Virus record (IMG/VR): IMGVR_UViG_3300030380_002089
Coordinates: 1 to 53,028 of that record
DNA length: 53,028 nt
Reading direction: 5' to 3' (one strand)
Source: a virus
In this document: positions 1 to 32,019 of the stretch, piece by piece
Position numbering within the stretch: position 1 is the stretch's first letter
Layout: each line of letters starts with the position of its first letter
Translations under genes and position numbers: made by a program
The notes under the pieces: model-generated
What the model was told of the DNA's origin: nothing
The model's database searches: none
The model's input: only the letters and a program-made list of their open reading frames with translations

Positions 1-291
1 TGACAACGCTACCCCTCACGCACGACAGGCGAATGCCTCACATGTGATACGCCCGCACTGCTTTCTAGTTTAGACGGCTAGTTTAGACACCGCAGTACAG
101 CGGTCTATAGAACGCAGCACCGCAGTTTAGACGGGCCAGTTTAGACGACCTTCGCCGGAGGCATGCAGTTTAGACCCCAGTTTAGACTTCTTTAACCCCA
201 TACGGCGCTCCAGAAAAAAAATTTTCAGAAAACTTTTTGGTATACCAAAAGAACCGATGGCTTTTTGTCCTGTTCCTTCATAGGTTTAGAC
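1..291. promoter_or_regulatory. Non-coding control region upstream of the left gene cluster
   Basis: No convincing gene was found here. The region holds six AGTTTAGAC direct repeats (67-187), then an A/T-rich stretch (210-250) and a T-rich box (261-267) about 31 bases before the ATG at 292. Composition changes from G/C-rich at the left to A/T-rich near the gene start. A reading frame in phase with the first gene continues upstream to a TTG at 265 and beyond, but with no good start codon. I read the region as promoter/operator or possibly origin-like sequence for the rightward gene cluster. Confidence 0.6.
67..187. repeat. Six AGTTTAGAC direct repeats in three pairs
   Basis: The nine-base unit AGTTTAGAC occurs exactly at 67-75, 80-88, 124-132, 138-146, 167-175 and 179-187. 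Within pairs the start-to-start distances are 13, 14 and 12 bases, slightly over one helical turn. Between the first units of successive pairs they are 57 and 43. All copies have the same orientation. The 8-mer GTTTAGAC recurs directly in front of the ATGs at 292 and 846. Operator for a repressor or activator, or an iteron-type origin, are the obvious readings; neither is proven. Confidence 0.8.
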
Positions 292-294
292 ATG
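261..294 (+). promoter_or_regulatory. Start-proximal leader with GTTTAGAC, copy 1
   Basis: This 34-base segment ends in the ATG at 292 and is identical at 30 of 34 positions to 815-848, which ends at the ATG at 846. It has CTTTTTG at -31 and GTTTAGAC immediately before the start codon. The layout fits a leaderless archaeal-type promoter (AT-rich box near -30, transcription starting at the ATG). An alternative is that the segment is translated: three of the four differences fall at third codon positions of the frame continuing upstream. Confidence 0.5.
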
Positions 295-807
295 AGTCCT
301 TTTGATGATGCTTGGCGTTTGTTAAAAATGCCAATTGTACCTGATTCATACACCCAACCGAACCCCAATAATCCACATTATCATCGTGCTGATTTTGAAA
401 TGCCCGACATAAGGGATAAACCACCAAATCAAAGAGCGAGCCTCCCTCTCGGTTATTCGGAGAGAGACAGGCCGAGATATGCTGGCAAAAAGGCATCTTT
501 ACAAGGAAATTATAACCCTGAAAAAAAGGAGTTTGATATAAGAATGTTAGGTTTTGACCGCTATGGAACGCCACCAACATTACCTGATAACATGGGCTTG
601 TTGATTGATAATCCGCAAGAGAATTACCGACAGTTAAGCACTCATGCTTTAACACGAAGGCATGGAGTCGCTACGGCTATGATGGATATGTTATCATTTT
701 TGAGAGAAAAATATGGCTTTGAACCTGCAAAGCCGACCAATTTAACTTTTGAGGGAGACCGTTTTTGGGGCGATAGGGAGTCATGGCCTGTGAGGGATGA
801 ACTATGA
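292..807 (+). CDS. Tagged hypothetical protein (W-L-L-K tag at N-terminus)
   Basis: 171 residues from the ATG at 292, of unknown function. Residues 4-12 read FDDAWRLLK, one of more than a dozen copies of a shared short motif in this window. The rest is polar, rich in Pro, Asn, Asp and Arg, without membrane segments or recognisable domain; a short C-terminal segment (HALTRRHGVATAMMDMLSFL) looks helical. The start at 292 is chosen over an in-frame TTG at 265 because GTTTAGAC abuts this ATG and because the tag then sits at residue 4, as in the sister genes. The stop overlaps the next gene's ATG (ATGA), suggesting translational coupling. Confidence 0.75.
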   Translation: MSPFDDAWRLLKMPIVPDSYTQPNPNNPHYHRADFEMPDIRDKPPNQRASLPLGYSERDRPRYAGKKASLQGNYNPEKKEFDIRMLGFDRYGTPPTLPDNMGLLIDNPQENYRQLSTHALTRRHGVATAMMDMLSFLREKYGFEPAKPTNLTFEGDRFWGDRESWPVRDEL

Positions 808-1034
808 CCGGAGCCTTTTTGTCTTGTTCTCTCATGGGTTTAGACATGGGAGCATTTGAACAGGCTTGGCAACTTCTAAAAGAAGAAGGCCCTTACATTA
901 CTTGGCAGACTCCTGAAAAGAAAATGGGCTACATAGATGGGAAGGGTCCTTACGATGCTAATTCTATCTACGCTTATTTGAAACAATACGATATGTATGA
1001 CAGTCGGATTGAAAGCGTGTCAGGGGAGGAATAA
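804..1034 (+). CDS. Small tagged hypothetical protein
   Basis: 76 residues from ATG 804, or 62 residues if translation starts at ATG 846. From 846 the protein begins MGAFEQAWQLLKEE, the shared tag; from 804 there is a 14-residue extension reading MTGAFLSCSLMGLD. The 804 start is supported by the ATGA overlap with the previous gene, the 846 start by the adjacent GTTTAGAC and by tag position. The remainder is a short polar tail rich in Tyr and Gly. Function unknown; possibly little more than a tag with a small cargo. Confidence 0.65.
   Translation: MTGAFLSCSLMGLDMGAFEQAWQLLKEEGPYITWQTPEKKMGYIDGKGPYDANSIYAYLKQYDMYDSRIESVSGEE
815..848 (+). promoter_or_regulatory. Start-proximal leader with GTTTAGAC, copy 2
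   Basis: Second copy of the 34-base segment at 261-294 (30 of 34 identical), ending at ATG 846. It lies inside the coding frame that opens at 804, so it may act as an internal promoter or mark a second start. CTTTTTG begins 31 bases before the ATG. Confidence 0.45.
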
Positions 1035-1036
1035 AT

Positions 1037-1912
1037 ATGACAGCATTCGACAACGCTTGGACACTTCTTAAGAATCGTGGGTTTGAAATGGACCCACGGT
1101 ATGAAGACGAGCGTGAACGCCAACTTGAAGAAATCCGTTATAGTGACGACCCTGAAAGAGATGAGTTGCTAAGTTTTCCCAATCAATATATTCCACCAAA
1201 GTCAAAGCAAGGACTTTACGAACTCCGTTACTACGACGACTTAGAGCGACAAAATAGGTTACGGTCACAGACCGGACCAATGTATCAGCAACAACAAGAC
1301 CAAGAGGCTGAGCGTATAGAGGCGGAAGGAATTGATTTACCTGATGTGCCGAGCAGTGCACCACCTGTTGACATAGGGCGGGCTGGTAGTCTGACTCCTG
1401 AACCTTTCAGACCTGACCTTGAACAAACGAAGCAAAGAATGTCACCTTTGGGTCAGGCATTAGCACAGGCTAGGTCACAACCTCCTCAGCCTTTGCAGTT
1501 TGAGAAGGCTTGGGCTACTCTCAAGGCAGACCCAAATATGCTTGATACTCAAGGGCGTAGTATACCCCCTGCATTAGCAAATCCTCAAAATTTTAATAGA
1601 CCGCCGGGCGATGCTGAAAGAAGTTTCCAATCAATAAGGGATGCAATGCTTGCAGCAGAAACAGATATGCCTTATTATGATAATCTTAGACAATACTTAT
1701 TGGCCAGAATACATAGAACTTCTAGGCCAAGCGCCTATCATTTTCTACAAAACGCTAATGAAGAAGAAAGAGAAAACATGCGTCAAAATGAGCGAAGGTT
1801 TGGCCCGCTGAGTTCTATTTTAGCCCAAGATACTGACAAGGGTAGAGAATTTTATCAGTACAGAGGGCCTGATGTATCAAACATGTATGCTCCTGTGCCT
1901 CAGCCAGAATAA
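1037..1912 (+). CDS. Hypothetical protein with two W-L-L-K tags
   Basis: 291 residues, start ATG 1037 shortly after the previous stop and behind GGGGAGGAATAAAT, a reasonable ribosome site. The N-terminus is MTAFDNAWTLLKNR (tag 1). A second, slightly divergent tag FEKAWATLKAD begins at residue 155, after a Pro/Gln-rich linker. The protein therefore looks like two tagged modules joined head to tail. Both modules are highly polar, rich in Arg, Glu, Gln and Tyr, with no membrane segment. No domain recognised. The duplicated tag suggests fusion of two formerly separate cargo-type proteins; this is inference. Confidence 0.75.
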   Translation: MTAFDNAWTLLKNRGFEMDPRYEDERERQLEEIRYSDDPERDELLSFPNQYIPPKSKQGLYELRYYDDLERQNRLRSQTGPMYQQQQDQEAERIEAEGIDLPDVPSSAPPVDIGRAGSLTPEPFRPDLEQTKQRMSPLGQALAQARSQPPQPLQFEKAWATLKADPNMLDTQGRSIPPALANPQNFNRPPGDAERSFQSIRDAMLAAETDMPYYDNLRQYLLARIHRTSRPSAYHFLQNANEEERENMRQNERRFGPLSSILAQDTDKGREFYQYRGPDVSNMYAPVPQPE

Positions 1913-1961
1913 TTTCAGGAAGACCGACAAGTTTAATTTCTACACTGCTTTAGGCTCGCAC

Positions 1962-2144
1962 ATGAGTATGTTAGAATTTTTATTCCCAAGAATGATTGGG
2001 TTATTTATACTGGGATTTATATTTGGATTTGTTTGGATATGGTTTACTTTCATAGCCGATGAAGACCCCGGTATGGTTATTTTTGAAGACGAGACTGAAC
2101 TGCAAGAAATGTGCATGAATGGCCTTCGGAGAGTGAAGGAATGA
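1962..2144 (+). CDS. Small single-pass membrane protein
   Basis: 60 residues from ATG 1962. Residues about 9-32 form one very hydrophobic, aromatic-rich helix (MIGLFILGFIFGFVWIWFTF), followed by an acidic cytoplasmic-type tail (DEDPGMVIFEDETELQEM). The frame is open further upstream, but the longer N-terminus overlaps the previous gene and is polar, so the shorter form is preferred. GTTTAATTT at 1931-1939 lies about 30 bases upstream and could be a TATA-like element. The stop overlaps the ATG of the HMG-CoA lyase-like gene by four bases, so the two are probably translated together. Function unknown. Confidence 0.6.
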   Translation: MSMLEFLFPRMIGLFILGFIFGFVWIWFTFIADEDPGMVIFEDETELQEMCMNGLRRVKE

Positions 2145-2962
2145 ATGTAACCGTCTATGAGGTCGGTCCTCGTGACGGTTTGCAGTATTTAGAACACATA
2201 GTAAGTGTAGATGATAAACGACAACTGATACAGGCTCTTTACGATGCTGGCATAGAACATATCGAAGAAGTAAGTTTTGCTCATCCTAAGCGTTTACCTC
2301 AGATGGCTGATGCTGAACAAGTCTTTACTGGCAGGGGTGCTGGGTTAGTTATGAATAAAAAAGGCTTTGACAGGGCCTGTTCTATAGAAACTAAGAAGAT
2401 AAATATAGTGTTTAGTCCATGTGAAACTTTCAATATTAATAACATGGGTAAGACTCGCTCGGAGATAGTTTTGATGTACAAGACATTTATGGACAAGGTG
2501 CCTAAAGAAAATGTAAGAGTTTACATTAGCATGGCCTTTGGAAGTCGTCATAGTGGTGTAGTAAGTCCAAGTCTAATGCGTCTTTGCATTCGAGATGCTA
2601 AGATGTTTGGCGACACTGTGGTATTCTCTGACACTAATGGGGCGGGCACTAGAAAAGAAGTTGCTCTTTGGGCACAGATGGCTATAGAAGAAGGCATGAA
2701 GCCAGCACTACATTTACATCATAGAGGCGATGAATCGAGAGCAGTGTCCTTACTTAACGGTATAAAGGAGTTCGACAGTAGTATACAGGGTTTGGGCGGT
2801 TGTCCTTTTACAGAAGACGGTGGTGCTAACTTAAGCACAGAGACACTGGTTAGGCATCTAAACGCATGGGGATTTGATTGTGGCACTACCGAGGACAACT
2901 TGAAAGAAGCATCTAGGCTTGCTTATCAAATATCTAATCCTACCGTGACGCTTTTATCATAG
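2141..2962 (+). CDS. HMG-CoA lyase-like DRE-TIM metallolyase
   Basis: 273 residues. Hydroxymethylglutaryl-CoA lyase cleaves HMG-CoA to acetyl-CoA and acetoacetate, using a TIM barrel and a divalent metal. The hallmarks are present: VGPRDGLQ at residues 8-15 (R11 catalytic, D12 metal ligand), SFAHPKRLPQMAD at 45-57, FSDTNGAG at 162-169, HLHH at 191-194 giving the H-x-H metal pair (H191, H193), then C221 in GGCPF and N230 nine residues later, the spacing seen between C266 and N275 in the human enzyme. It is slightly shorter than the usual roughly 300 residues. ATG 2141 overlaps the upstream stop; a GTG at 2111 would add a polar extension without similarity. Related DRE-TIM aldolases cannot be excluded on specificity. 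An auxiliary metabolic gene inside a virion gene cluster is unusual. Confidence 0.88.
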   Translation: MNVTVYEVGPRDGLQYLEHIVSVDDKRQLIQALYDAGIEHIEEVSFAHPKRLPQMADAEQVFTGRGAGLVMNKKGFDRACSIETKKINIVFSPCETFNINNMGKTRSEIVLMYKTFMDKVPKENVRVYISMAFGSRHSGVVSPSLMRLCIRDAKMFGDTVVFSDTNGAGTRKEVALWAQMAIEEGMKPALHLHHRGDESRAVSLLNGIKEFDSSIQGLGGCPFTEDGGANLSTETLVRHLNAWGFDCGTTEDNLKEASRLAYQISNPTVTLLS

Positions 2963-2979
2963 TTATCTTTACGAGACAC

Positions 2980-3348
2980 ATGGCGGGCGCTTTTGAACAA
3001 GCATGGAGTTTGTTGAAAGCATTGCCCGGACAGAGAGAAATGGCTGACTCAGGTCGAACTATGACTCAGAGAGAAATGGGTTACGGTAGCGATGATGATG
3101 TTGATATGGGTTCTGTTCATCCGGGTGCACTTTCTGCTATGAGAAGATTACAGGGCGAAGGTCCACTAGACACTCGTAGTTATGAAAGTGAAGATGACCT
3201 TACAGATGAAGCAGGTAATTACACTCCAGATGCAAAGGGTAGACTAATAGGAACTTCTCGACAAAGAGATGTTACTAGGTCAGGTGCAAGAAAGCCAGAC
3301 ACAGGTAAATTTTACAACCCTGATACTGGGCAAATGGAAGAAAGGTGA
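2980..3348 (+). CDS. Tagged hypothetical protein
   Basis: 122 residues, ATG 2980. The N-terminus is MAGAFEQAWSLLKALP, the shared tag, nearly identical to that of the gene at 804/846 (GAFEQAW in both). The remainder is polar and apparently disordered: Asp/Glu-rich in the middle (GSDDDVDMG), basic near the end. There is no ATGA coupling to the upstream gene; CTTTTAT at 2951-2957 lies 29 bases before the start and fits a TATA-like box of a leaderless transcript. Function unknown. Confidence 0.7.
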   Translation: MAGAFEQAWSLLKALPGQREMADSGRTMTQREMGYGSDDDVDMGSVHPGALSAMRRLQGEGPLDTRSYESEDDLTDEAGNYTPDAKGRLIGTSRQRDVTRSGARKPDTGKFYNPDTGQMEER

Positions 3349-3354
3349 ACAACA

Positions 3355-4587
3355 ATGACAGCATTTGACCACGCATGGAGACTTTTGAAAGCAACGCCTG
3401 AACAACAACTCATGGGTATGAGAGGTTCTATTCCACAGGCTCTCAGTAGATTTCCAAGAGGAGATGTTTCGAGAGCGCCTTTCACAGGTGACGAAGGAAT
3501 GGAAGACCGTGAAGAACGGATGGCAGAAATAGCAAGGCTTCGACAAGAAGGGATGGCACAGTCTGACAAAGACCGAATGACTTCTGAGGGTGCTAGAGGA
3601 CCCGCTGATTTACGACAATATTACGATAGACAATTCCAAGAAGGCTTCATCGCCCCTCAAGAAAAGAGAATGATGTTAAGACCGGGAGAAACTGAAACAG
3701 AAAGAGCAGCCAGATTAAATCTTGGTGGCGGTCAAAGAGGAGGAAGAATGGATGCAAGCAGTATGACTGCTGCTCAAAGATTTGGTAGACCTGATGAAGA
3801 AACCGGAGAAACTGGAATGAGACCTAAGACAAGAGTTAGAAGAGGTAACATGGAAGGTATTATGACAATGGGGCGAGGTCGAGGCCGAAGAGGTGCGTTT
3901 AATCCAAGAACTGCTGAGGCTTTACCAGAGCGCCCGCCAGAATCTAAACCAATTACTTCGGCGCAGAAGCGTATAGCGTTACTCGAAAGTATGCAAAGAC
4001 AAAACCCTAATTTTGACATTAAAATACCTACAGAACAAGAGTTAATGGAACAAGAAACTCAAGAAAAGAGACCTTACAAATCACGCATAGACAATGAAGA
4101 GTTAGAGGAAATAGAAGATAATTTGACTAATATATACGGACCAGAGATGGCAAGTAGGATTGTTCAGTCTATGATTGACGACCCTCAGCCTCCAGCCCTT
4201 AGAACTGCTGGAGTCCGTCAGCAAAACATTGACCCTCAAGGAGATAGACCAACCTTTAGACCAAGTAGCGGTCAATTCCTAGGTCCTCAGTTTGATGATA
4301 TGGGCGAACCTAAAATGACTTCCAGAGGCAGACCTTCGATGACAGGTATTTCCCCTATGGATATTGAACAGATGGGTCGTCAGGCTATGGTCGAAGGTGA
4401 GATTGACCCACGAATTACTAGTAGATATACTGACGCTTTGGATAAAGTACCAGTGACTGCTGGTGAAAAGGCAAGAACTGACAGGGCAGCAGAACAGGCT
4501 ATGCGAGAATATGCTCAAAGAACAGGTCAAGGTATGACTTATACCCAAGGTACTGATGCTGAGGGTAATGTTCGATACGGTCTTTAA
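3355..4587 (+). CDS. Arg/Gln/Met-rich tagged protein, probable internal virion protein
   Basis: 410 residues, ATG 3355 six bases after the previous stop, with a possible GAAAGGTGAA ribosome site. It begins MTAFDHAWRLLKATPEQQ, the shared tag. The rest is low-complexity and rich in Arg, Gln, Met, Glu and Gly, with RGG-like clusters around residues 165-182 (GRGRGRRG) and repeated short RPS/RG segments, and no membrane helix. Such composition suits a disordered, nucleic-acid-associated protein. Packaging with the genome is inferred from the tag and composition, not from similarity. Confidence 0.7.
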   Translation: MTAFDHAWRLLKATPEQQLMGMRGSIPQALSRFPRGDVSRAPFTGDEGMEDREERMAEIARLRQEGMAQSDKDRMTSEGARGPADLRQYYDRQFQEGFIAPQEKRMMLRPGETETERAARLNLGGGQRGGRMDASSMTAAQRFGRPDEETGETGMRPKTRVRRGNMEGIMTMGRGRGRRGAFNPRTAEALPERPPESKPITSAQKRIALLESMQRQNPNFDIKIPTEQELMEQETQEKRPYKSRIDNEELEEIEDNLTNIYGPEMASRIVQSMIDDPQPPALRTAGVRQQNIDPQGDRPTFRPSSGQFLGPQFDDMGEPKMTSRGRPSMTGISPMDIEQMGRQAMVEGEIDPRITSRYTDALDKVPVTAGEKARTDRAAEQAMREYAQRTGQGMTYTQGTDAEGNVRYGL

Positions 4588-4627
4588 TGACACCAAAGTT
4601 CAAGTATAGTGTTACTTACCCGTAGAC

Positions 4628-4801
4628 ATGCTGTGGGATTTAGTTTTAGGTTTGTCTTGGCTGGCCCTCGCACTGTCGATGTATGTTTTGACACAGACAA
4701 TATCTACTATGCGAAAGGATGTAGACGACCTTATGGCGATGGTAAGAGTGATTAGGTATAATTCTCTCAAAGAAAGGGATGATAAAAATGACACAAAGTA
4801 A
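4628..4801 (+). CDS. Small single-pass membrane protein (57 aa)
   Basis: An open frame from ATG 4628 to TAA 4799-4801. It starts MLWDLVLGLSWLALALSMYV, one clear membrane helix, followed by a charged tail with a short amphipathic segment (TMRKDVDDLMAMVRVIRY) and a Lys/Asp-rich end. TAGAC directly precedes the ATG, as in the genes at 292 and 846, and an AAGTATAG box lies about 26 bases upstream. The next gene starts inside its 3' end. The shape resembles small phage membrane or spanin-like proteins, but no function can be assigned. Confidence 0.6.
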   Translation: MLWDLVLGLSWLALALSMYVLTQTISTMRKDVDDLMAMVRVIRYNSLKERDDKNDTK

Positions 4802-4943
4802 ATCTAAAGGTAAGCAAAAGAGTTTACCATGTGAACATTGTCAATATCACCCTACTAAGCGGGTTTATATTAAGCAGAGTAATGTTTTCAAGGGGTTCGC
4901 TTGGTACTGTAAAGTGTGTCAAAAGTTTACTATAGCGGAGTAA
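4788..4943 (+). CDS. Small zinc-ribbon protein (51 aa)
   Basis: ATG 4788 to TAA 4941-4943, overlapping the previous gene by 14 bases. After a lysine-rich start the protein has CEHC at residues 15-18 and CKVC at 41-44, separated by a strand-rich segment (KRVYIKQSNVFKGFAWYC). This is the layout of a minimal zinc ribbon binding one zinc ion through four cysteines. Nucleic-acid or protein binding is likely; the exact role is unknown. Confidence 0.65.
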   Translation: MTQSKSKGKQKSLPCEHCQYHPTKRVYIKQSNVFKGFAWYCKVCQKFTIAE

Positions 4944-5081
4944 CTGTTAAATAAGCACTCATTAACGCAGGTTTGGCTGGCTTATCTTTTGGCTCTTTCT
5001 CGGTTATGCTTGAACACACCTATTTTTCCAATTTCTTTCTTGGGTAAGTCGGCCACCCTAATGTTTTTGTTGTGATTGAGC

Positions 5082-6269
5082 ATGGCTCTGTTTATGGAGG
5101 CAGCGTCAGCAATAGATATTGCTTGGCTTTTGCTTAAAAATGAGCCTATACAAGAAATGTCAAACGACGACTTAATGGCTTTAGTAGAAGGACCAACTGC
5201 CTTTGATGCGGGTCTAGGTCATTATGCTAGACAAGAAAACCCTGCGACTCCTGAACAGCAGCAACAAGCCTTACGAGAACTAGAATTGAGACAAATGGAA
5301 ATGTCAGGTAATATGCCTCAAGTCTACGACTCTCCTGATGATTTAGAACCTGTTAGGCAAATAGTAGATTTTTATGAGCCTCAATTCGACAGCACTGGTA
5401 TTGGCGCCTCTTCTATTCCTCAAACAGAAAAGGAAGGGGAGCAGTACATAGAAGACTTTCCGGGTGAATTAGATGAAGAATATATGGACAGAATTATGGA
5501 TGTAAGAGAATCAATGCCCGGCCAAAGTAATATTTTAAATGACGATTACCTAGGTACATATAATCATCTGAAAAATACTGCACCACCCGAAGTCGCTCAG
5601 CAATTTTTTGAAAGGTATAGAAATTTTATTATGAATCAAAATGAAAATCCTGAGTACTTAAGCCAGTCATTAATCCAAGCACTTGATGAAAACGCACCCG
5701 CACCCACCGCCCCAAAGTATACTAGAGAATTTCCAACAGATGAAAGTTTATTCGACATTAAGCCACCTAAAGGAGTAAGTATGGTTTCTCCAGATGCCAC
5801 AGGCTTTTCGCACAGGTTCCAAGATATTAACAAAGGTGAACCTATGGACATTGCTTGGCGTTTGCTCAAACGCCAAACTACTCTTCCTAATTTTGATATG
5901 GGACTAGATGAAACCACCGGCTATCAAGGAGTGGCGCCTGTTCAACAGGTAAGTGCTCAGCCTTTGGGTTACAAAGATGCGTATTTACAGGGTCAATATC
6001 CTGATGAGTTTTGGTCGGCAGTTGGTGGTGACCCTGAGATAACTAGGGGTCATGGAGGCTCTCGACACCGAGCAGATGAGCAGGGTAATTACCTTGCAGT
6101 AGGAGTCCGTGGTCGACAACCAATGGGTGATTTACCTACTCGTGGACCCTTTAGACCAAGAAAAGGTAGAGCAGGTTATCCTCAAGATATGGGCGTAAGG
6201 GTAATATCTTCGGGCGATATGCCTGAACCGGAGCAGATGGTTACTACGCCAATGAGAGGAGGTAATTGA
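5082..6269 (+). CDS. Hypothetical protein with two W-L-L-K tags
   Basis: 395 residues from ATG 5082 (an in-frame TTG at 5076 would add two residues). The first tag, IDIAWLLLK, is at residues 11-19 after MALFMEAASA. The second, MDIAWRLLKRQ, begins at residue 255. Between them lies an acidic, Gln/Glu/Pro-rich segment; after the second tag the protein becomes Gly/Arg-rich with repeated GD/RG patches. The layout repeats that of the gene at 1037: two tagged modules in one chain. No known domain and no membrane segment. The 138-base gap before it (4944-5081) contains nothing recognisable beyond a T-rich stretch. Confidence 0.72.
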   Translation: MALFMEAASAIDIAWLLLKNEPIQEMSNDDLMALVEGPTAFDAGLGHYARQENPATPEQQQQALRELELRQMEMSGNMPQVYDSPDDLEPVRQIVDFYEPQFDSTGIGASSIPQTEKEGEQYIEDFPGELDEEYMDRIMDVRESMPGQSNILNDDYLGTYNHLKNTAPPEVAQQFFERYRNFIMNQNENPEYLSQSLIQALDENAPAPTAPKYTREFPTDESLFDIKPPKGVSMVSPDATGFSHRFQDINKGEPMDIAWRLLKRQTTLPNFDMGLDETTGYQGVAPVQQVSAQPLGYKDAYLQGQYPDEFWSAVGGDPEITRGHGGSRHRADEQGNYLAVGVRGRQPMGDLPTRGPFRPRKGRAGYPQDMGVRVISSGDMPEPEQMVTTPMRGGN

Positions 6270-6270
6270 C

Positions 6271-6585
6271 ATGGATTTAGCGTTTGAAGAAGCATGGGGT
6301 ATTCTCAAAGGTAAAAAGAAATCAAAACCTTTCCATGGCTATAATCCTAAAAAGCATGCTAAAACTGGTGGATTAAATGCAAAAGGTCGTGCTGCGGCTA
6401 AGCGTAAGACTGGTGCAAATCTTAAGCGACCTGTCACAAAAAAACCAAGTAAACTTAAGCGTGGCAGTAAAGCGTCTAAGCGCCGTAAATCATTCTGTGC
6501 TCGTATGACAGCAGTTAAAGGCCCTACAAGTAAAAAGGGTAAATTGACTCCTAAAGGAGCAGCGTTGAAAAGGTGGAATTGTTAA
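6271..6585 (+). CDS. Lysine-rich tagged protein with DUF6321-like domain
   Basis: 104 residues, very basic. The N-terminal tag is LAFEEAWGILK (residues 3-13). The rest matches, from memory, the DUF6321 pattern of marine phages and large viruses: a GGLNAKGR block, a TGANLKRPV block, SFCARM at about 75-80, and the terminal KGKLTPKGAALKRWNC. The family has no established biochemical function; its charge suggests nucleic-acid binding. The stop and the next ATG share one base (TAATG), indicating coupling. Here the conserved domain carries the window's own tag in front. Confidence 0.75.
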   Translation: MDLAFEEAWGILKGKKKSKPFHGYNPKKHAKTGGLNAKGRAAAKRKTGANLKRPVTKKPSKLKRGSKASKRRKSFCARMTAVKGPTSKKGKLTPKGAALKRWNC

Positions 6586-7232
6586 TGGCAGAGTGGTGGA
6601 ATCTTTTAAAGAAACAAAAGGACCCTGATTTGACCTTGCCTAGAGGTAAAGAAGTGGTTCTTCAAGCCGAAGACAAAGATTACGAAAGAGGTTTACTTGT
6701 TAAGTTGTTGAAGAACGGTGGTTATGAAATGGCTTATTGGTATGATAAACATAAACCATATCCAATAGAAGTATTAGTTGATGGTAAATCAATCAAAAAA
6801 GATGCTAAAAAAGTTACCATGAAATTCCATCCTCAGTTGAAAAAGGCTATGGAAAATACCGAACAAGTGATTTTAAATGAAATAGAAAAAGAAGGTGGTG
6901 CTTTAGGTATGAAAAACCTTAGAAAAGTTGTACCTGATGAAGAAGAATTGAAATCTACATTGGATAATATGATTAACCAAGGTAAAGTATTTGTTCACGA
7001 AGATGGTGACATATATACCCACGAACCTGATAATAGAATGGAGAAGTCTTGTGACTGTAGTCATTGTGTCGGTAGTTTTGCTGCTATGGACTTTTTAGAA
7101 AAAAAATTGTGTCCAGCGGGTAAAGCAGCAGCCAAGCGTAAGTTCAAAGTTTATCCATCAGCGTATGCAAATGGTTGGGCAGTGCAATACTGCAAAGGTA
7201 AATTCCGTGGTAAAAAGAAGGGGAAGAAATGA
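6585..7232 (+). CDS. Basic protein with tag-like N-terminus and YPSAYAN domain
   Basis: 215 residues from ATG 6585 (a GTG at 6573 would overlap the previous gene). It begins MAEWWNLLKKQ, a variant of the shared tag. Residues about 90-145 resemble a small winged-helix-like fold (VILNEIEKEGGALGMKNLRK, then a KVFVHEDGDIYTH hairpin), an impression only. CDCSHC is at about 154-159. The C-terminus, KLCPAGKAAAKRKFKVYPSAYANGWAVQYCKG and a lysine tail, is a motif common in marine phage and large-virus proteins of unknown role. Probable nucleic-acid-associated virion protein. Confidence 0.72.
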   Translation: MAEWWNLLKKQKDPDLTLPRGKEVVLQAEDKDYERGLLVKLLKNGGYEMAYWYDKHKPYPIEVLVDGKSIKKDAKKVTMKFHPQLKKAMENTEQVILNEIEKEGGALGMKNLRKVVPDEEELKSTLDNMINQGKVFVHEDGDIYTHEPDNRMEKSCDCSHCVGSFAAMDFLEKKLCPAGKAAAKRKFKVYPSAYANGWAVQYCKGKFRGKKKGKK

Positions 7233-7786
7233 GCATATGTACTTGCCATGATGTTCTTATCGTCAAGAACCTAAACAGGTGGTTTAAAGAGAAATGGGTC
7301 GATGTTTCTCGTAAAGACAAAGATGGTAAGCATCCCCCATGCGGTAGGTCAAAGGCTAAGAAAGGAAGTAAGGGTTATCCAAAGTGTCGACCAAGTGTGA
7401 AGGTATCAAGTAAAACTCCAAAGACTTCTGGTTCAATGTCCGAAGGACAAAAGCGAGCAGCGACTAAGCGTAAGCGAAGTAAAAAACAAGGAGTTGGTGG
7501 TAAGCCAACTATTGTTAAGTCACCAATGGACCTCGCTTTTCAGTTGTTGAAAGACGCAGTAAGTCCAGAGGCTAAGCGTCACAAGTTAGAGTATGATAAA
7601 AAATATGAGTCTAGTCCTGAGCGTGTAAAGTATCGTGAGGAATTAAATCGTGAGCGTAGAAAAAGGGGCATTTACGGTCATGGAGGGCCTGATATGAGCC
7701 ATACTAAGGACCATACGCTGGTTGCAGAAAGTCCACATGCGAACAGGGCTAGGCACTTTAAAGAGCGTGGTACACTTAAAGGATAA
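7229..7786 (+). CDS. Basic two-module protein with internal tag
   Basis: 185 residues, ATG 7229 overlapping the previous stop (ATGA). The N-terminal half (WFKEKWVDVSRKDKDG, CGRSKAKKGSKGYPKC, then EGQKRAATKRKRSK) matches a lysine-rich module I know from phage and large-virus proteins (DUF5872-like; name given from memory). At residue 100 comes the tag MDLAFQLLKD. A second basic module follows (YESSPERVKYREELNRERRK, then SPHANRARHFKERGTLKG), another small motif seen in marine viruses. Two domains that elsewhere stand alone are joined here through the tag. Probably a DNA-associated packaged protein. Confidence 0.72.
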   Translation: MSICTCHDVLIVKNLNRWFKEKWVDVSRKDKDGKHPPCGRSKAKKGSKGYPKCRPSVKVSSKTPKTSGSMSEGQKRAATKRKRSKKQGVGGKPTIVKSPMDLAFQLLKDAVSPEAKRHKLEYDKKYESSPERVKYREELNRERRKRGIYGHGGPDMSHTKDHTLVAESPHANRARHFKERGTLKG

Positions 7787-7817
7787 CTAAATTAGCCTTC
7801 TGCCCTTAGCATGTATC

Positions 7818-8024
7818 GTGGATGAGTTTTGGGACACACTATTTCAACACATGTTAGCAGTGGCTTTTGAAAATGTCATGCGTATGGAAGAAAAGGTTAG
7901 CGAATACGACTCGCCAGAAGCCCTTTGTCTTTTAGTAGAGGCTGCGGATAACTATCAGTTCTTGCGACAGGCTTATCACGATAAATGCGCTGGGGATATA
8001 CATGTCGAGTTCAAGCCCTATTGA
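7818..8024 (+). CDS. Small acidic helical protein
   Basis: 68 residues beginning with GTG at 7818; no ATG alternative gives a comparable frame. It is predicted largely helical and acidic (DEFWDTLFQHMLAVAFENVM, then MEEKVSEYDSPEALCLLVEA). The sequence CCTTAGCATG just upstream and an A/T-rich CTAAATTAG at -31 could supply a promoter. The 3' end overlaps the next gene's start by 23 bases. Its first residues weakly recall the tag without the diagnostic A-W-x-L-L-K. Function unknown. Confidence 0.5.
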   Translation: MDEFWDTLFQHMLAVAFENVMRMEEKVSEYDSPEALCLLVEAADNYQFLRQAYHDKCAGDIHVEFKPY

Positions 8025-12456: not shown

Positions 12457-12698
12457 TGATAGAAAATAATCCAATGATAGGTTTTTCTTCGACAGCAATG
12501 GGAATATTTGCACCAGTAAAAAGAGTCATAGTCGATATGGTAATGGTTCAACTATTAGCAATCATAGTTACATTAGGGTTGATACTAGTTACAGGTGCCG
12601 ATAATTTGAGTAGTGATACTATGGCATATCTTGTAGCAGGTTTATTCGCTGCTTTCTTTATGCTCGGCGGAATCTACAGTAGAATATCGAGTATCTAG
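12456..12698 (+). CDS. Two-helix small membrane protein
   Basis: 80 residues, ATG 12456 overlapping the previous stop (TAATGAT). It has two membrane helices, about residues 25-46 (VDMVMVQLLAIIVTLGLILV) and 57-76 (MAYLVAGLFAAFFMLGGIYS), separated by a short polar turn, giving a hairpin. It ends the cassette that began at 9223. Its 3' end overlaps by 57 bases the end of the minus-strand zinc-ribbon gene. Phage holins have this size and layout, but no lysis enzyme is nearby, so holin is only one option. Confidence 0.6.
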   Translation: MIENNPMIGFSSTAMGIFAPVKRVIVDMVMVQLLAIIVTLGLILVTGADNLSSDTMAYLVAGLFAAFFMLGGIYSRISSI

Positions 12699-12965
12699 TT
12701 CTACATGCCTACCCCACTTTTTCAACGGACATTCGCTTGAACTTAGGCTCGTTTTGACTCTCATCTGACATCCGCATTCTGTGCATCTGTTACTAGTATG
12801 CTCCCAACTAGGACAAACCATACATATGTCCATTCTTATTTGCTTTACATCTTTTGGTACATATCTTCTCATAAATATGTCTCTTCCGGCTCTCGTTAGA
12901 CTTTTTGCTGTCTCTATAGAAACAGGAACTCCCATGATTTTAGGCTTAATTCTTGGCAGTTTCAT
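12642..12965 (-). CDS. Zinc-ribbon protein, only minus-strand gene
   Basis: 107 residues from the ATG complementary to 12963-12965. It has six cysteines in a pattern typical of small phage zinc-ribbon proteins: C48, C51, C61, C64, C66 and C79, with CMVCPSWEH, RCTECGCQM and the characteristic K-T-x-L-x(4)-CPLKKW. The N-terminal part has a basic helical segment (IETAKSLTRAGRDIF). CTTTTGA lies about 31 bases before the start, matching other promoters here. It diverges from the small terminase gene with 60 bases between starts and converges on the GTPase cassette, overlapping it by 57 bases. Possibly a transcription regulator; function unproven. Confidence 0.75.
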   Translation of the reverse strand: MKLPRIKPKIMGVPVSIETAKSLTRAGRDIFMRRYVPKDVKQIRMDICMVCPSWEHTSNRCTECGCQMRVKTSLSSSECPLKKWGRHVELDTRYSTVDSAEHKESSE

Positions 12966-13025
12966 ATAACTATGCTGGCACTTCTTGTTCAAAAGGGTTA
13001 TCCGTGTTAATGACATGGGCTGCAC
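12966..13025. promoter_or_regulatory. Divergent promoter region
   Basis: These 60 bases lie between two divergent start codons (minus-strand 12965 and plus-strand 13026). They include a CTTTTGA box, read on the minus strand, at about -31 of the zinc-ribbon gene. A clear box for the plus-strand gene is not visible; GGTTATC at 12996-13002 is the nearest candidate. A shared operator is plausible. Confidence 0.4.
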
Positions 13026-13731: not shown

Positions 13732-14853
13732 ATGCCAATGATTACAGGTTCTGACACAAGGATGTACAATCCTAGAAGTGAATCTATGCTTGGTTATTCT
13801 AAAGACGATGATTATCGTTACGGAATAGGTGACCCTAAATCGATGGAAGAGTATCGTGATAAAAAGCAGTCTGAAAAAGAAGCCGAACCTAAATCAGATG
13901 ATTTACCACACTTGCAGATAGAAGTTCCAAAACCTACTCCAAAGATGCCTCCAGTGATGCCGGAAGAAGAGGAGCCTGAAATGAGCGACCAATTTAATGA
14001 AGGTCAGCAGTTCGGTGCTATGACAGGAATGCCTGACATGGGTAATTTGAGTATAGGGAATGCTACAGGAACTATGCCTCAGCCCGGTGGTACACTAATG
14101 ACTGGTGAACCAATGGAAGATGCTTGGTCTACTTTGATGAAAAGTCGACTTGACAAAGTAAAGGGTGCCAAAGACCAATCTTGGAAACAACCTCAATACG
14201 AAACTCAACCGGGCGGGGCAGATATTACAACTGCCAATACTCGTCGTGCTAAATTACAATCAAGATATGTTCAACCAAGTAAGAAAAGAGGGCTTGACAG
14301 AGCACCTTTGAGCGTACATCGTTCTCACTTGGGTATCGCTACTAAGCAACCTTTGAGGCTATTTCCTCAAAAATACGGCCAACAAATGGGAAGTATGGCT
14401 CGCCGTAAGTTGATGGGCAACATCCCAACAGCGCCAGCAGGTCACGCAATGGGTCCTGAGACTACATATTCACCAAAGTCTCCTAAAGTGGCATCTGGTG
14501 CTGGGCTTCCTTTGAAAGAACCAAGAGCACCTATGATGAGAGGACAGGCTCTCGCTAAATCAGAACTTGAATTAATTAAGCAAGACCTTGAAGAGTTGAA
14601 GAAAAAAGATGATTACATGCGTTTTGCTCAGATAAGAAGACTTCTAAGACAACTGAAAGATGTTGCTGAGAGACAAGAGCGTAGGCTAAAAGCGAGTGCT
14701 GGACCCGGAGAAGTAAAAGAATCGGGGCATAGAGAGGGACAAGATAGCACTACTCGACCAGAGGGTGCTACAGAAGACATGGAGAATGACCCCAAGAATT
14801 GGGGTGCTCCTTCTACTATATTTGCAGCGAGAGGTAGCGGGAGGGTCGGCTGA
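13732..14853 (+). CDS. Hypothetical virion protein with internal W-L-L-K tag
   Basis: 373 residues, ATG 13732 behind GTGAGGAGATATAC, a strong ribosome site. The N-terminal 125 residues are acidic/Pro/Met-rich. An internal tag-like MEDAWSTLMKS begins at residue 128, followed by a strongly basic, Arg/Lys/Pro-rich part (about 137-270). A charged helix (about 278-325: ELELIKQDLEELKKKDDYMR) is likely a coiled coil. The stop overlaps the next start. It is the only tagged gene outside the left arm. Function unknown. Confidence 0.65.
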   Translation: MPMITGSDTRMYNPRSESMLGYSKDDDYRYGIGDPKSMEEYRDKKQSEKEAEPKSDDLPHLQIEVPKPTPKMPPVMPEEEEPEMSDQFNEGQQFGAMTGMPDMGNLSIGNATGTMPQPGGTLMTGEPMEDAWSTLMKSRLDKVKGAKDQSWKQPQYETQPGGADITTANTRRAKLQSRYVQPSKKRGLDRAPLSVHRSHLGIATKQPLRLFPQKYGQQMGSMARRKLMGNIPTAPAGHAMGPETTYSPKSPKVASGAGLPLKEPRAPMMRGQALAKSELELIKQDLEELKKKDDYMRFAQIRRLLRQLKDVAERQERRLKASAGPGEVKESGHREGQDSTTRPEGATEDMENDPKNWGAPSTIFAARGSGRVG

Positions 14854-18041: not shown

Positions 18042-19523
18042 GTGGAAGGGGTTGATAAACTGGTCCATGACATGGATGTGGAAATGTCCAGAAAGTCATT
18101 CGAGTACTTCTTCACTGAAATTTTACAATTCGAGTTCTCACATCACCACAGAGACTGGCTCGAAGGATTAAATGAAAGTCGCAGATACTGTGTCAAAGCG
18201 TCAAGAGACCACGGCAAGTCAGTTTTCTTTATGTCATATGCACTTTGGTTAGCAGCGTTTACTCCCAACACTCACATTATGGTATTCAGTCACTCTTTAG
18301 AGCAGACATTAGAACACATGCGTTTTATTCGCAACAACATAGAAACTGCTGATATTCTCAAAGGGCTAAAGCCAACAGGTAAGCCTTGGGCTAAATCTTA
18401 CTTCGAGTTCACTAACGGTAGCCGTATGATGGCTAAGTCGGTTGGTGGTGCTACTCGTGGTTTCCACCCTGATGTCGTAGTATGTGACGATATTCTTTGG
18501 GGGACTACTAGTTCTGAGTTACAGAGAGCAGCCGATTGGTTCTATACAGTTTTACTTCCTGTTCTTCACCACACTGGTAGACTGATGATGGTCGGTACAC
18601 CGTTTAGTTACAATGACCTGTACGCTGAGTTAGAAGATAAATCTGCGTTTAGAGTTGAAACCTATCCGGCTATCTTACCTAATGGAGAACCACTTTGGCC
18701 TAGCCGATGGCCTTTAGATGCGTTAAAGGTGCGTGAAGACTCTATGCCCGCTATCAAGTTCGCTCGTGAGTATCTCTGTGAACCTATTCACGATATGTCT
18801 AGTATGTTTCCAATGACTCTTTTGGAAAAGGCTAGAGATAAAAATTTAATTTTACTCGATAAAGCCGAACAACAGTTTGATGAAAACGGAGAAGCCAACG
18901 GTGTATTCGGTCAGCACTTTATCGGTTGGGACCCAGCGATAGCATCAGACTCTAATGCTGACTATACTGCTATGACAGTTCTTAGAATATTACCTGATAG
19001 TGAAGAGAAGCAACTAATCCATGTTGTTAATCAAAAAGGTATGAGTGGTTCAGCACAGAAGCGTCACATAGTTTTACTCAACAATCGATTTCAACCTGAC
19101 TTAATTGAACTTGAAGGTAATAATTTCCAGCGTATGTTTGCTGCTGAGTTACAAGAGATGAGAGACGACATACCCATTAAGACATTTATGACTACTCGAC
19201 AAAAGAAGGAAAGTATGTTTATGAGTTTACTGATGGCTTTTGAACAAGGTAAGATAAAGACACCTTGGGGTGACGCTAAGAGTAAAGAATTTACTCGTGA
19301 ATTAGAAACACAATTGAGTAGATTCGGTATGCAAAAGAATGGTCGATTAGAATCTGTAGGTAGCCATGATGACTTAGCCATGAGCCTAGCATTATCTAAT
19401 TGGGCAACCAAAGAATTTAGAGGCTCTATTATCGCATTAGATGATTACTTAGATGGCTTTGATAAGTGGTTTGGAGATGTGTCACAAAGAAATGTAGCGG
19501 GCGCTTCTTGGTTTACTATGTGA
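18042..19523 (+). CDS. Large terminase subunit (TerL)
   Basis: 493 residues, the motor that pumps DNA into the prohead and cuts it. The ATPase shows Walker A ASRDHGKS (53-60), Walker B VVVCDD (145-150), and a coupling-type GTPF at 185-188. The RNase H-like nuclease shows GWDPAIASDSNAD (295-307; D297 first acidic ligand), LIELEGNN (354-361) and the final acidic pair in SHDDLAMS (441-448). All key residues are present, so the enzyme should be active. The start is GTG 18042; ATGs at 18072 or 18084 would lose little. Length is usual for the family. It is followed by a LAGLIDADG gene and the portal. Confidence 0.95.
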   Translation: MEGVDKLVHDMDVEMSRKSFEYFFTEILQFEFSHHHRDWLEGLNESRRYCVKASRDHGKSVFFMSYALWLAAFTPNTHIMVFSHSLEQTLEHMRFIRNNIETADILKGLKPTGKPWAKSYFEFTNGSRMMAKSVGGATRGFHPDVVVCDDILWGTTSSELQRAADWFYTVLLPVLHHTGRLMMVGTPFSYNDLYAELEDKSAFRVETYPAILPNGEPLWPSRWPLDALKVREDSMPAIKFAREYLCEPIHDMSSMFPMTLLEKARDKNLILLDKAEQQFDENGEANGVFGQHFIGWDPAIASDSNADYTAMTVLRILPDSEEKQLIHVVNQKGMSGSAQKRHIVLLNNRFQPDLIELEGNNFQRMFAAELQEMRDDIPIKTFMTTRQKKESMFMSLLMAFEQGKIKTPWGDAKSKEFTRELETQLSRFGMQKNGRLESVGSHDDLAMSLALSNWATKEFRGSIIALDDYLDGFDKWFGDVSQRNVAGASWFTM

Positions 19524-30849: not shown

Positions 30850-32019
30850 ATGGCAAGAAATTATATGAGAACAGTAAATGATATGGAGCGCTATTATTAT
30901 GGCGCTGGGCAAAGCATGGGGTATTCCTACAGTGGTTCTGAACTACTAAAGGCAGATGCACCTATGCTTTCCACTACAGCGGGAACATACCAAGCAATAT
31001 ACGGTAGAAAAGTATGGAGCCAGTTGAACCAAGAGTTCAACGCATTCTCCATCCTACCTAAGAAACCTTGGGACAGAAGTGGATGGCGTGTTGTAACCGC
31101 TAAGCCTTCTGACACAGTTGGTGGAGGAATTGCAGAGAACGGTACTCTACCGGAAACTCAAAAACCAACTTTCCAAAATGTTGCAGCGAAGCCAAAGACC
31201 GTCGCTCACTCATTCGATATGTCTGAGATGGCAATTTTCCTAAACGATAAAGATGATGGTCTAGGTGACATTCGCTCAGTATTGAAAGAAGAAATGGGTA
31301 AGCACCACGCAGAGATGATTAACAAAATGCTACTTAGAGACACTGACACCCCAGCAGGTAATGATATTGAGTCACTTGACCGTGTTACCGCCGGTCACGC
31401 TGCAAGTTTAACTACCAGTACAAGTGCAATTGCAGATGGAACAGGTCACATCAGTGCAGCAACTGACTTAGATATTTATTCAATAAACCGTGAGACTAAC
31501 GCTTCATGGGCTAACGCTGAAATGTCAGTTAACGGTATTTCTGGTACCCCTACCAACAGAACTCTATCTCTCGACCACTTTGATGAATTATTCAGAAAGA
31601 TTTGGCAGAGAGGTGGTAATCCAAAGGTTATGCTAACTGGATATGACACTTTGATGAGACTTCAACAACTTCTACAAAGCCAACAAAGGTTCATGGAAGA
31701 AAAGCGTGTTGTACCAACTTACAACGGTGTCAAGGGTGTCCCCGGTATGGAAGCAGGGTTTATCGTCGCTACCTACAATGGTGTACCAATCATCCCATCT
31801 AAGGATGTTGAAGCCGATGGTATCAGCAGAATTTACATGTTAGACACTGACTACTTATACTACAGCACTGCTAAGCCTACACAATACTTTGAATCTGGTA
31901 TCGAAACTGGAGACCCATTCGCCATTAACAGACTTGGACAGGAAGGGCTTTATCGAACCATGGGTGAAATATGGACAACTTTCTTTGGAGGTCAAGGTTC
32001 AATCCGTGACTTACAGTAA
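30850..32019 (+). CDS. Major capsid protein, HK97 fold
   Basis: 389 residues, ATG 30850 behind AAAGGAGG (7-base gap). It forms the hexamers and pentamers of the head. Position immediately after protease/scaffold, length and pattern fit HK97-type capsid proteins of archaeal and marine tailed viruses: a helical N-arm, a segment around AKPSDTVGGGIAENGTLPET (E-loop region), the long spine-helix segment LKEEMGKHHAEMINKMLL, the P-domain-like HFDELFRKIWQRGGNPKVML, and A-domain strands with GVPIIPSKDVEADGISRIYM. No extra domain. The codon and ribosome-site strength suits a highly expressed gene. Confidence 0.92.
   Translation: MARNYMRTVNDMERYYYGAGQSMGYSYSGSELLKADAPMLSTTAGTYQAIYGRKVWSQLNQEFNAFSILPKKPWDRSGWRVVTAKPSDTVGGGIAENGTLPETQKPTFQNVAAKPKTVAHSFDMSEMAIFLNDKDDGLGDIRSVLKEEMGKHHAEMINKMLLRDTDTPAGNDIESLDRVTAGHAASLTTSTSAIADGTGHISAATDLDIYSINRETNASWANAEMSVNGISGTPTNRTLSLDHFDELFRKIWQRGGNPKVMLTGYDTLMRLQQLLQSQQRFMEEKRVVPTYNGVKGVPGMEAGFIVATYNGVPIIPSKDVEADGISRIYMLDTDYLYYSTAKPTQYFESGIETGDPFAINRLGQEGLYRTMGEIWTTFFGGQGSIRDLQ

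Follow-up and report, generated by a model that had tools for sequence, protein, structure and literature searches.

Why should a virus of archaea carry an enzyme that consumes HMG-CoA? HMG-CoA lyase cleaves (S)-HMG-CoA into acetyl-CoA and acetoacetate; (S)-HMG-CoA is also the substrate of HMG-CoA reductase, and archaeal membrane lipids are built starting from HMG-CoA. The question is raised by one gene of the IMG/VR record IMGVR_UViG_3300030380_002089, analyzed here over its whole length of 53,028 nucleotides (hereafter, the window). Our main finding is that this gene likely belongs to a divergent, virus-specific branch of HMG-CoA lyases found in magroviruses, which would redirect HMG-CoA during infection.

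A preliminary description of the window announced a complete HMG-CoA lyase-like enzyme, and the open reading frame (ORF; Table 1) does encode an HMGL-family protein with a TIM-barrel fold; the GTG found in frame at 2111 is an unlikely start. Residues 3-259 matched Pfam PF00682 (HMGL-like) with E=1.5e-14 and 54.4 bits, above the gathering cut-off of 29 bits, and the protein matched human HMGCL (2cw6) with E=3e-30, its best PDB relatives being human and bacterial HMG-CoA lyases. Against NCBIfam NF004283 (HMG-CoA lyase), the match was strong (E=1.4e-48) but its 166 bits fell below the curated cut-off of 246. Taken together, these matches rule out a chance ORF. The AlphaFold2 model is a confident barrel (pLDDT 90.8), for which the 14 leading Foldseek matches in the PDB were all HMG-CoA lyases (E from 1.9e-24 to 2.1e-21). 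Isopropylmalate synthase came next at 3.6e-13, about eight orders of magnitude behind. In a tree of 79 proteins, the viral sequences form one clade (support 100) on a long stem (1.16), and the HMG-CoA lyase side, viral clade included, is split from the other sampled DRE-TIM enzymes with an SH-aLRT of 94; archaeal cellular enzymes are not part of this tree, which does not resolve the place of the viral clade relative to cellular subgroups. The preliminary description had let its assignment depend on phylogeny against the DRE-TIM families, and the grouping with HMG-CoA lyases upholds it. Another DRE-TIM function is disfavoured by both the Foldseek ranking and the tree.

In human HMG-CoA lyase, R41, D42, E72, Y167, H233, H235, C266 and N275 are catalytic or Mg-binding (PMC6941031). 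In the HMMER alignment the catalytic set (R41, E72, Y167 and C266) is complete in the window protein as R11, E42, Y128 and C221, and so is the metal ligand set (D42, H233, H235 and N275), as D12, H191, H193 and N230. Six of these had been named at the outset; E42 and Y128 are two further catalytic residues. All eight are invariant in 82 viral sequences (the window plus 81 aligned IMG/VR relatives), and the loop cysteine is invariant also in 86 aligned cellular HMG-CoA lyases. Cellular enzymes have HxHD/N where all viral sequences have HxHH, the equivalences of H191, H193 and H194 being those of the HMMER alignment, since a MAFFT alignment had the HxH columns off by two relative to bacterial sequences. 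Moreover, the positions equivalent to human E279 and D280 are variable among viral sequences. Because of the missed NF004283 cut-off, of HxHH in all viral copies and of the variation at these two positions, we designate the protein as HMG-CoA lyase-like, a probable HMG-CoA lyase of a virus-specific subfamily, and withhold certified membership among HMG-CoA lyases. The viral lyases are under purifying selection (dN/dS of about 0.04-0.11 in viral pairs), and we predict with good confidence that the family has lyase activity.

Table 1. Features of the window discussed in the text
Feature	Position	Strand	Remarks
Promoter-like element TTTAATTTCTACACTG	1932..1947	+	30 nt upstream of ATG 1962; putative promoter
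Small single-TM protein	1962..2144	+	60 aa from ATG 1962 (probable start); ORF open from 1872
HMG-CoA lyase-like gene	2141..2962	+	open ORF, 273 aa from ATG
HLHH, codons 191-194	2711..2722	+	metal ligands H191, H193; H194 in place of cellular D/N
15-bp in-frame deletion site relative to close relatives	2747..2752	+	LV(R/K)SG (5 residues) missing from helix alpha-7
Catalytic loop G220-C221-P-F...-N230	2798..2830	+	human C266 to N275
Terminase large subunit (TerL)	18042..19523	+	phrog_38, E=9e-63
Portal	from 20820	same strand as lyase	
S78 protease	from 29399	same strand as lyase	
Major capsid protein (MCP), HK97-type	30850..32019	+	nearest named relatives HVTV-1/HCTV haloviruses

As for the virus itself, the window represents part of a magrovirus-type genome, that of a tailed virus of Poseidoniales archaea; it is a linear 53-kb record holding only the virion half. 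Its HK97-type MCP, TerL, portal and protease are related to those of Druskaviridae-type haloviruses, in agreement with the virion genes that define the Magrovirales, and the other named MCP relatives are viruses of methanogenic archaea; the archaeal host presumed in the preliminary description is thus supported, the window being that of an archaeal tailed virus. Among 20 lyase-bearing contigs of 80-109 kb, PolB is present in 19 and a chaperonin in all 20, both of which are known marks of magroviruses (PMC5332604, PMC10768690). The lyase had been placed in a virion gene cluster, which is roughly right: it lies on the same strand as these genes, though 16 kb upstream of TerL. Gene order is kept in four viral contigs (L003, L004, L005 and L047), with about 80% nucleotide identity in shared stretches of the first 12-14 kb of the window, and the lyase gene is therefore viral. 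An origin in host-derived or contaminating DNA, a concern voiced earlier, is ruled out by this match of gene order and flanks. The only likely minus-strand gene of the co-directional cluster (12642-13025) encodes a protein that is rich in cysteine and matches phrog_13558.

Close relatives of the window lyase were found in 50 IMG/VR stretches by a single-protein search, and an alignment search recovered at least 168 IMG/VR loci with the gene, so that its expected presence in related viral genomes is borne out. Within 50 records with a related MCP, the lyase occurs in 17, and in 6 of the 8 that reach at least 90 kb; it is thus frequent but not universal. A second viral subfamily (L270-L276), about 40% identical and likewise with HxHH, resides on contigs with a related MCP; an internal TAA is present in one of its members, L271. 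A different arrangement is seen in further magroviruses (L032, L035-L038, L041, L143, L145 and L147; L043-L045 and L050), where the lyase adjoins a very large tail-type protein and is directly followed by a protein of about 465 aa and then one of about 125 aa; these different neighbours indicate that the gene moved within the virion region.

In the window, the lyase start and the end of the ORF of a small single-TM protein share 4 nt (ATGA). This overlap, described as translational coupling in the preliminary description, is real and recurs: a 4-nt overlap with an upstream ORF exists in 42 of the 82 loci, 41 of them with a predicted TM segment. The small proteins have a common C-terminus of the type E-L-x-E-M-C-x-G-L-R-R, and the last codons of their gene contain the Shine-Dalgarno-like sequence of the lyase (GGAGAG in the window, GGAG in other loci). 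Translation of the lyase is probably coupled to that of the membrane protein. Further upstream, a conserved element, TTTAATTTCTACACT, is found in the window 30 nt before the small-TM start and in related loci 28-30 nt before the small-TM gene, or before the lyase itself; it is plausibly a promoter with a leaderless transcript.

What could such an enzyme do for the virus? In infected Poseidoniales, it would cleave (S)-HMG-CoA to acetyl-CoA and acetoacetate. Since the lyase and HMG-CoA reductase use the same HMG-CoA, a cell expressing the viral enzyme would lose substrate at the mevalonate branch point and make isoprenoid lipids more slowly, a diversion of lipid precursors that we predict only tentatively, at somewhat less than an even chance. 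Together with host HMG-CoA synthase, the lyase would form an HMG-CoA cycle that turns acetoacetyl-CoA into acetoacetate and free CoA. Freeing of carbon and energy, also proposed in the preliminary description, is a weak option where the mevalonate route supplies HMG-CoA from acetyl-CoA, because this cycle then runs with no net gain of acetyl-CoA; net carbon and energy would be obtained only from leucine-derived HMG-CoA.

It is conceivable, then, that the lyase finishes host leucine breakdown and that its acetyl-CoA and acetoacetate feed virus production. Indeed, Xu et al. 2023 (PMC10160649), who list HMGCL among magroviral AMGs, assigned it to leucine degradation on the basis of KEGG, and MGII archaea reportedly possess amino-acid and branched-chain transporters. 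We nevertheless hold this role to be rather unlikely: leucine-degradation genes were not seen beside the viral lyase, and the MGII literature searched mentions leucine biosynthesis and transport, leucine degradation not being found there. Mevalonate genes were likewise not seen beside it, which counts against the diversion of lipid precursors. Nor did that literature yield any mention of an HMG-CoA lyase of MGII archaea, and a contig scan for the host's own lyase gave only bacteria among the matches listed. With modest confidence, we prefer diversion at the mevalonate branch over a role in leucine degradation. Should the predicted activity hold, viruses that infect some of the commonest marine archaea would intervene where archaeal membrane-lipid synthesis first branches. 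We know of no cultured system that can yet show viral action on this branch point; since the lyase is frequent in magroviruses, the question of its role can be approached with purified protein, without a cultured host.

The window copy calls for a separate assessment, as it might be a decaying or mis-assembled gene in which the frame is intact and the enzyme impaired. Its 15-bp deletion falls after the HxHH strand, with a short direct repeat, TTA, at the edges; in addition, R136 stands where relatives have P (81/82) and N166 where they have V or I (49/50), and the deletion and both changes are absent from the aligned relatives, apart from no more than one further N/P exception. In the models, alpha-7 has 5 helical residues in the window versus 12 in L003, less than half the usual length, with a local pLDDT of 84-89 versus 93-97. 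On the other hand, the gene has no stops, the barrel as a whole is modelled with high confidence, and dN/dS against relatives is still about 0.1, with synonymous sites near saturation. The window lyase shares 76% identity with both L002 and L003, whose identity to one another is 97%. In the tree, the branches of the window copy and its sister L002 are equal (0.17 and 0.18). Impairment of this copy is, in our opinion, unlikely. Rapid decay finds no support in the branch length, though the deletion stays unexplained; the window enzyme may be altered, and decay is not demonstrated. As the deletion shortens alpha-7, activity is less certain here than in the relatives, and we predict it for the window copy with moderate confidence. 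Between the window and the L003 contig, the MCPs (L215 in the latter) are 97% identical, whereas the lyases of the same pair are only 76% identical; this uneven divergence suggests module exchange.

A shift of substrate, by which the protein would be a lyase or aldolase acting, for example, on another 3-hydroxy-3-alkylglutaryl-CoA, with the new specificity and HxHH having become fixed jointly in the viral lineage, would fit the long stem, the changes at HxHH and at the E279 and D280 positions across the whole viral clade, and the score below the HMG-CoA lyase cut-off. It is improbable given that all eight HMG-CoA lyase residues are kept, including the equivalents of R41, Y167 and C266. As for the small membrane protein, it may keep the lyase at the membrane. 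The more elaborate scenario, in which the two genes form a dedicated module whose membrane-placed HMG-CoA cleavage stops isoprenoid-lipid synthesis in the infected cell, HxHH being a virus-specific catalytic variant, is speculative and we give it little credence.

A short peptide, [PA]F[DE]xAWxLLK, starts many unrelated proteins in the window (265-8024 and 13732-14853) and in loci L002-L050 and L131-L162; one of the tagged proteins (6271-6585, DUF6321) is very basic. The core A[WF]x[LIV][LIVM]K occurs in the first 45 residues of 192 plus-strand ORFs from 50 of the 82 loci; on the minus strand 9 ORFs have it, and among 2294 shuffled ORFs 2 do. The peptide resembles a tag for sorting or packaging, similar in principle to the sequence that targets internal proteins of T4 to the capsid; no mention of it was found in the literature searched, and it is possibly more novel than the lyase. 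Although the lyase sits among late and virion genes and adjoins proteins with this tag, a non-catalytic or virion-associated protein is highly improbable, because the lyase itself is untagged and invariant catalytic residues are not expected of a non-enzyme.

How does the viral enzyme compare with known systems? With cellular HMG-CoA lyases (human HMGCL 2cw6/3mp5; Pseudomonas aeruginosa 2ftp) it has in common the TIM-barrel, the DRE motif, both metal histidines, the Cys-Asn of the catalytic loop and the equivalents of Tyr167 and Glu72. It differs from them by an identity of only 30-37%, by HxHH instead of HxHD/N, by the inconstant E279/D280 and by its score below the NCBIfam cut-off and, in the window copy, by the shortened alpha-7. 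Isopropylmalate, citramalate and homocitrate synthases and 4-hydroxy-2-oxovalerate aldolase have the same fold and DRE motif, but they match the structure much more weakly and are separate in the tree; to our knowledge, these other DRE-TIM enzymes lack the loop cysteine. The preliminary description knew of no common viral precedent, a statement that does not stand in view of the many IMG/VR loci, of Klosneuvirus and of published magroviruses. Klosneuvirus KNV1 encodes a viral protein of the HMGL fold (A0A1V0SKU2; Foldseek E=1.8e-21), but it is a giant eukaryotic virus and its HMGL-like protein is 27% identical. Closest are Aoguangviridae virus YSH_150918 and the magroviral vOTUs of Xu et al., which resemble the window in enzyme annotation, kind of virus and AMG status; for the published records ON649702 and OR863078, the likeness to the window lyase is one of annotation, not of sequence comparison. 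The ICTV profile of the Aoguangviridae (2023, PMC10768690) counts HMG-CoA lyase among host-modulating genes, and both this profile and PMC10160649 report magroviral lyases. The presence of HMG-CoA lyase in magroviruses is therefore already published, and what is new here is the structure of the viral subfamily with its HxHH, the deletion in the window copy and, upstream of the lyase, the conserved element and the coupled membrane protein.
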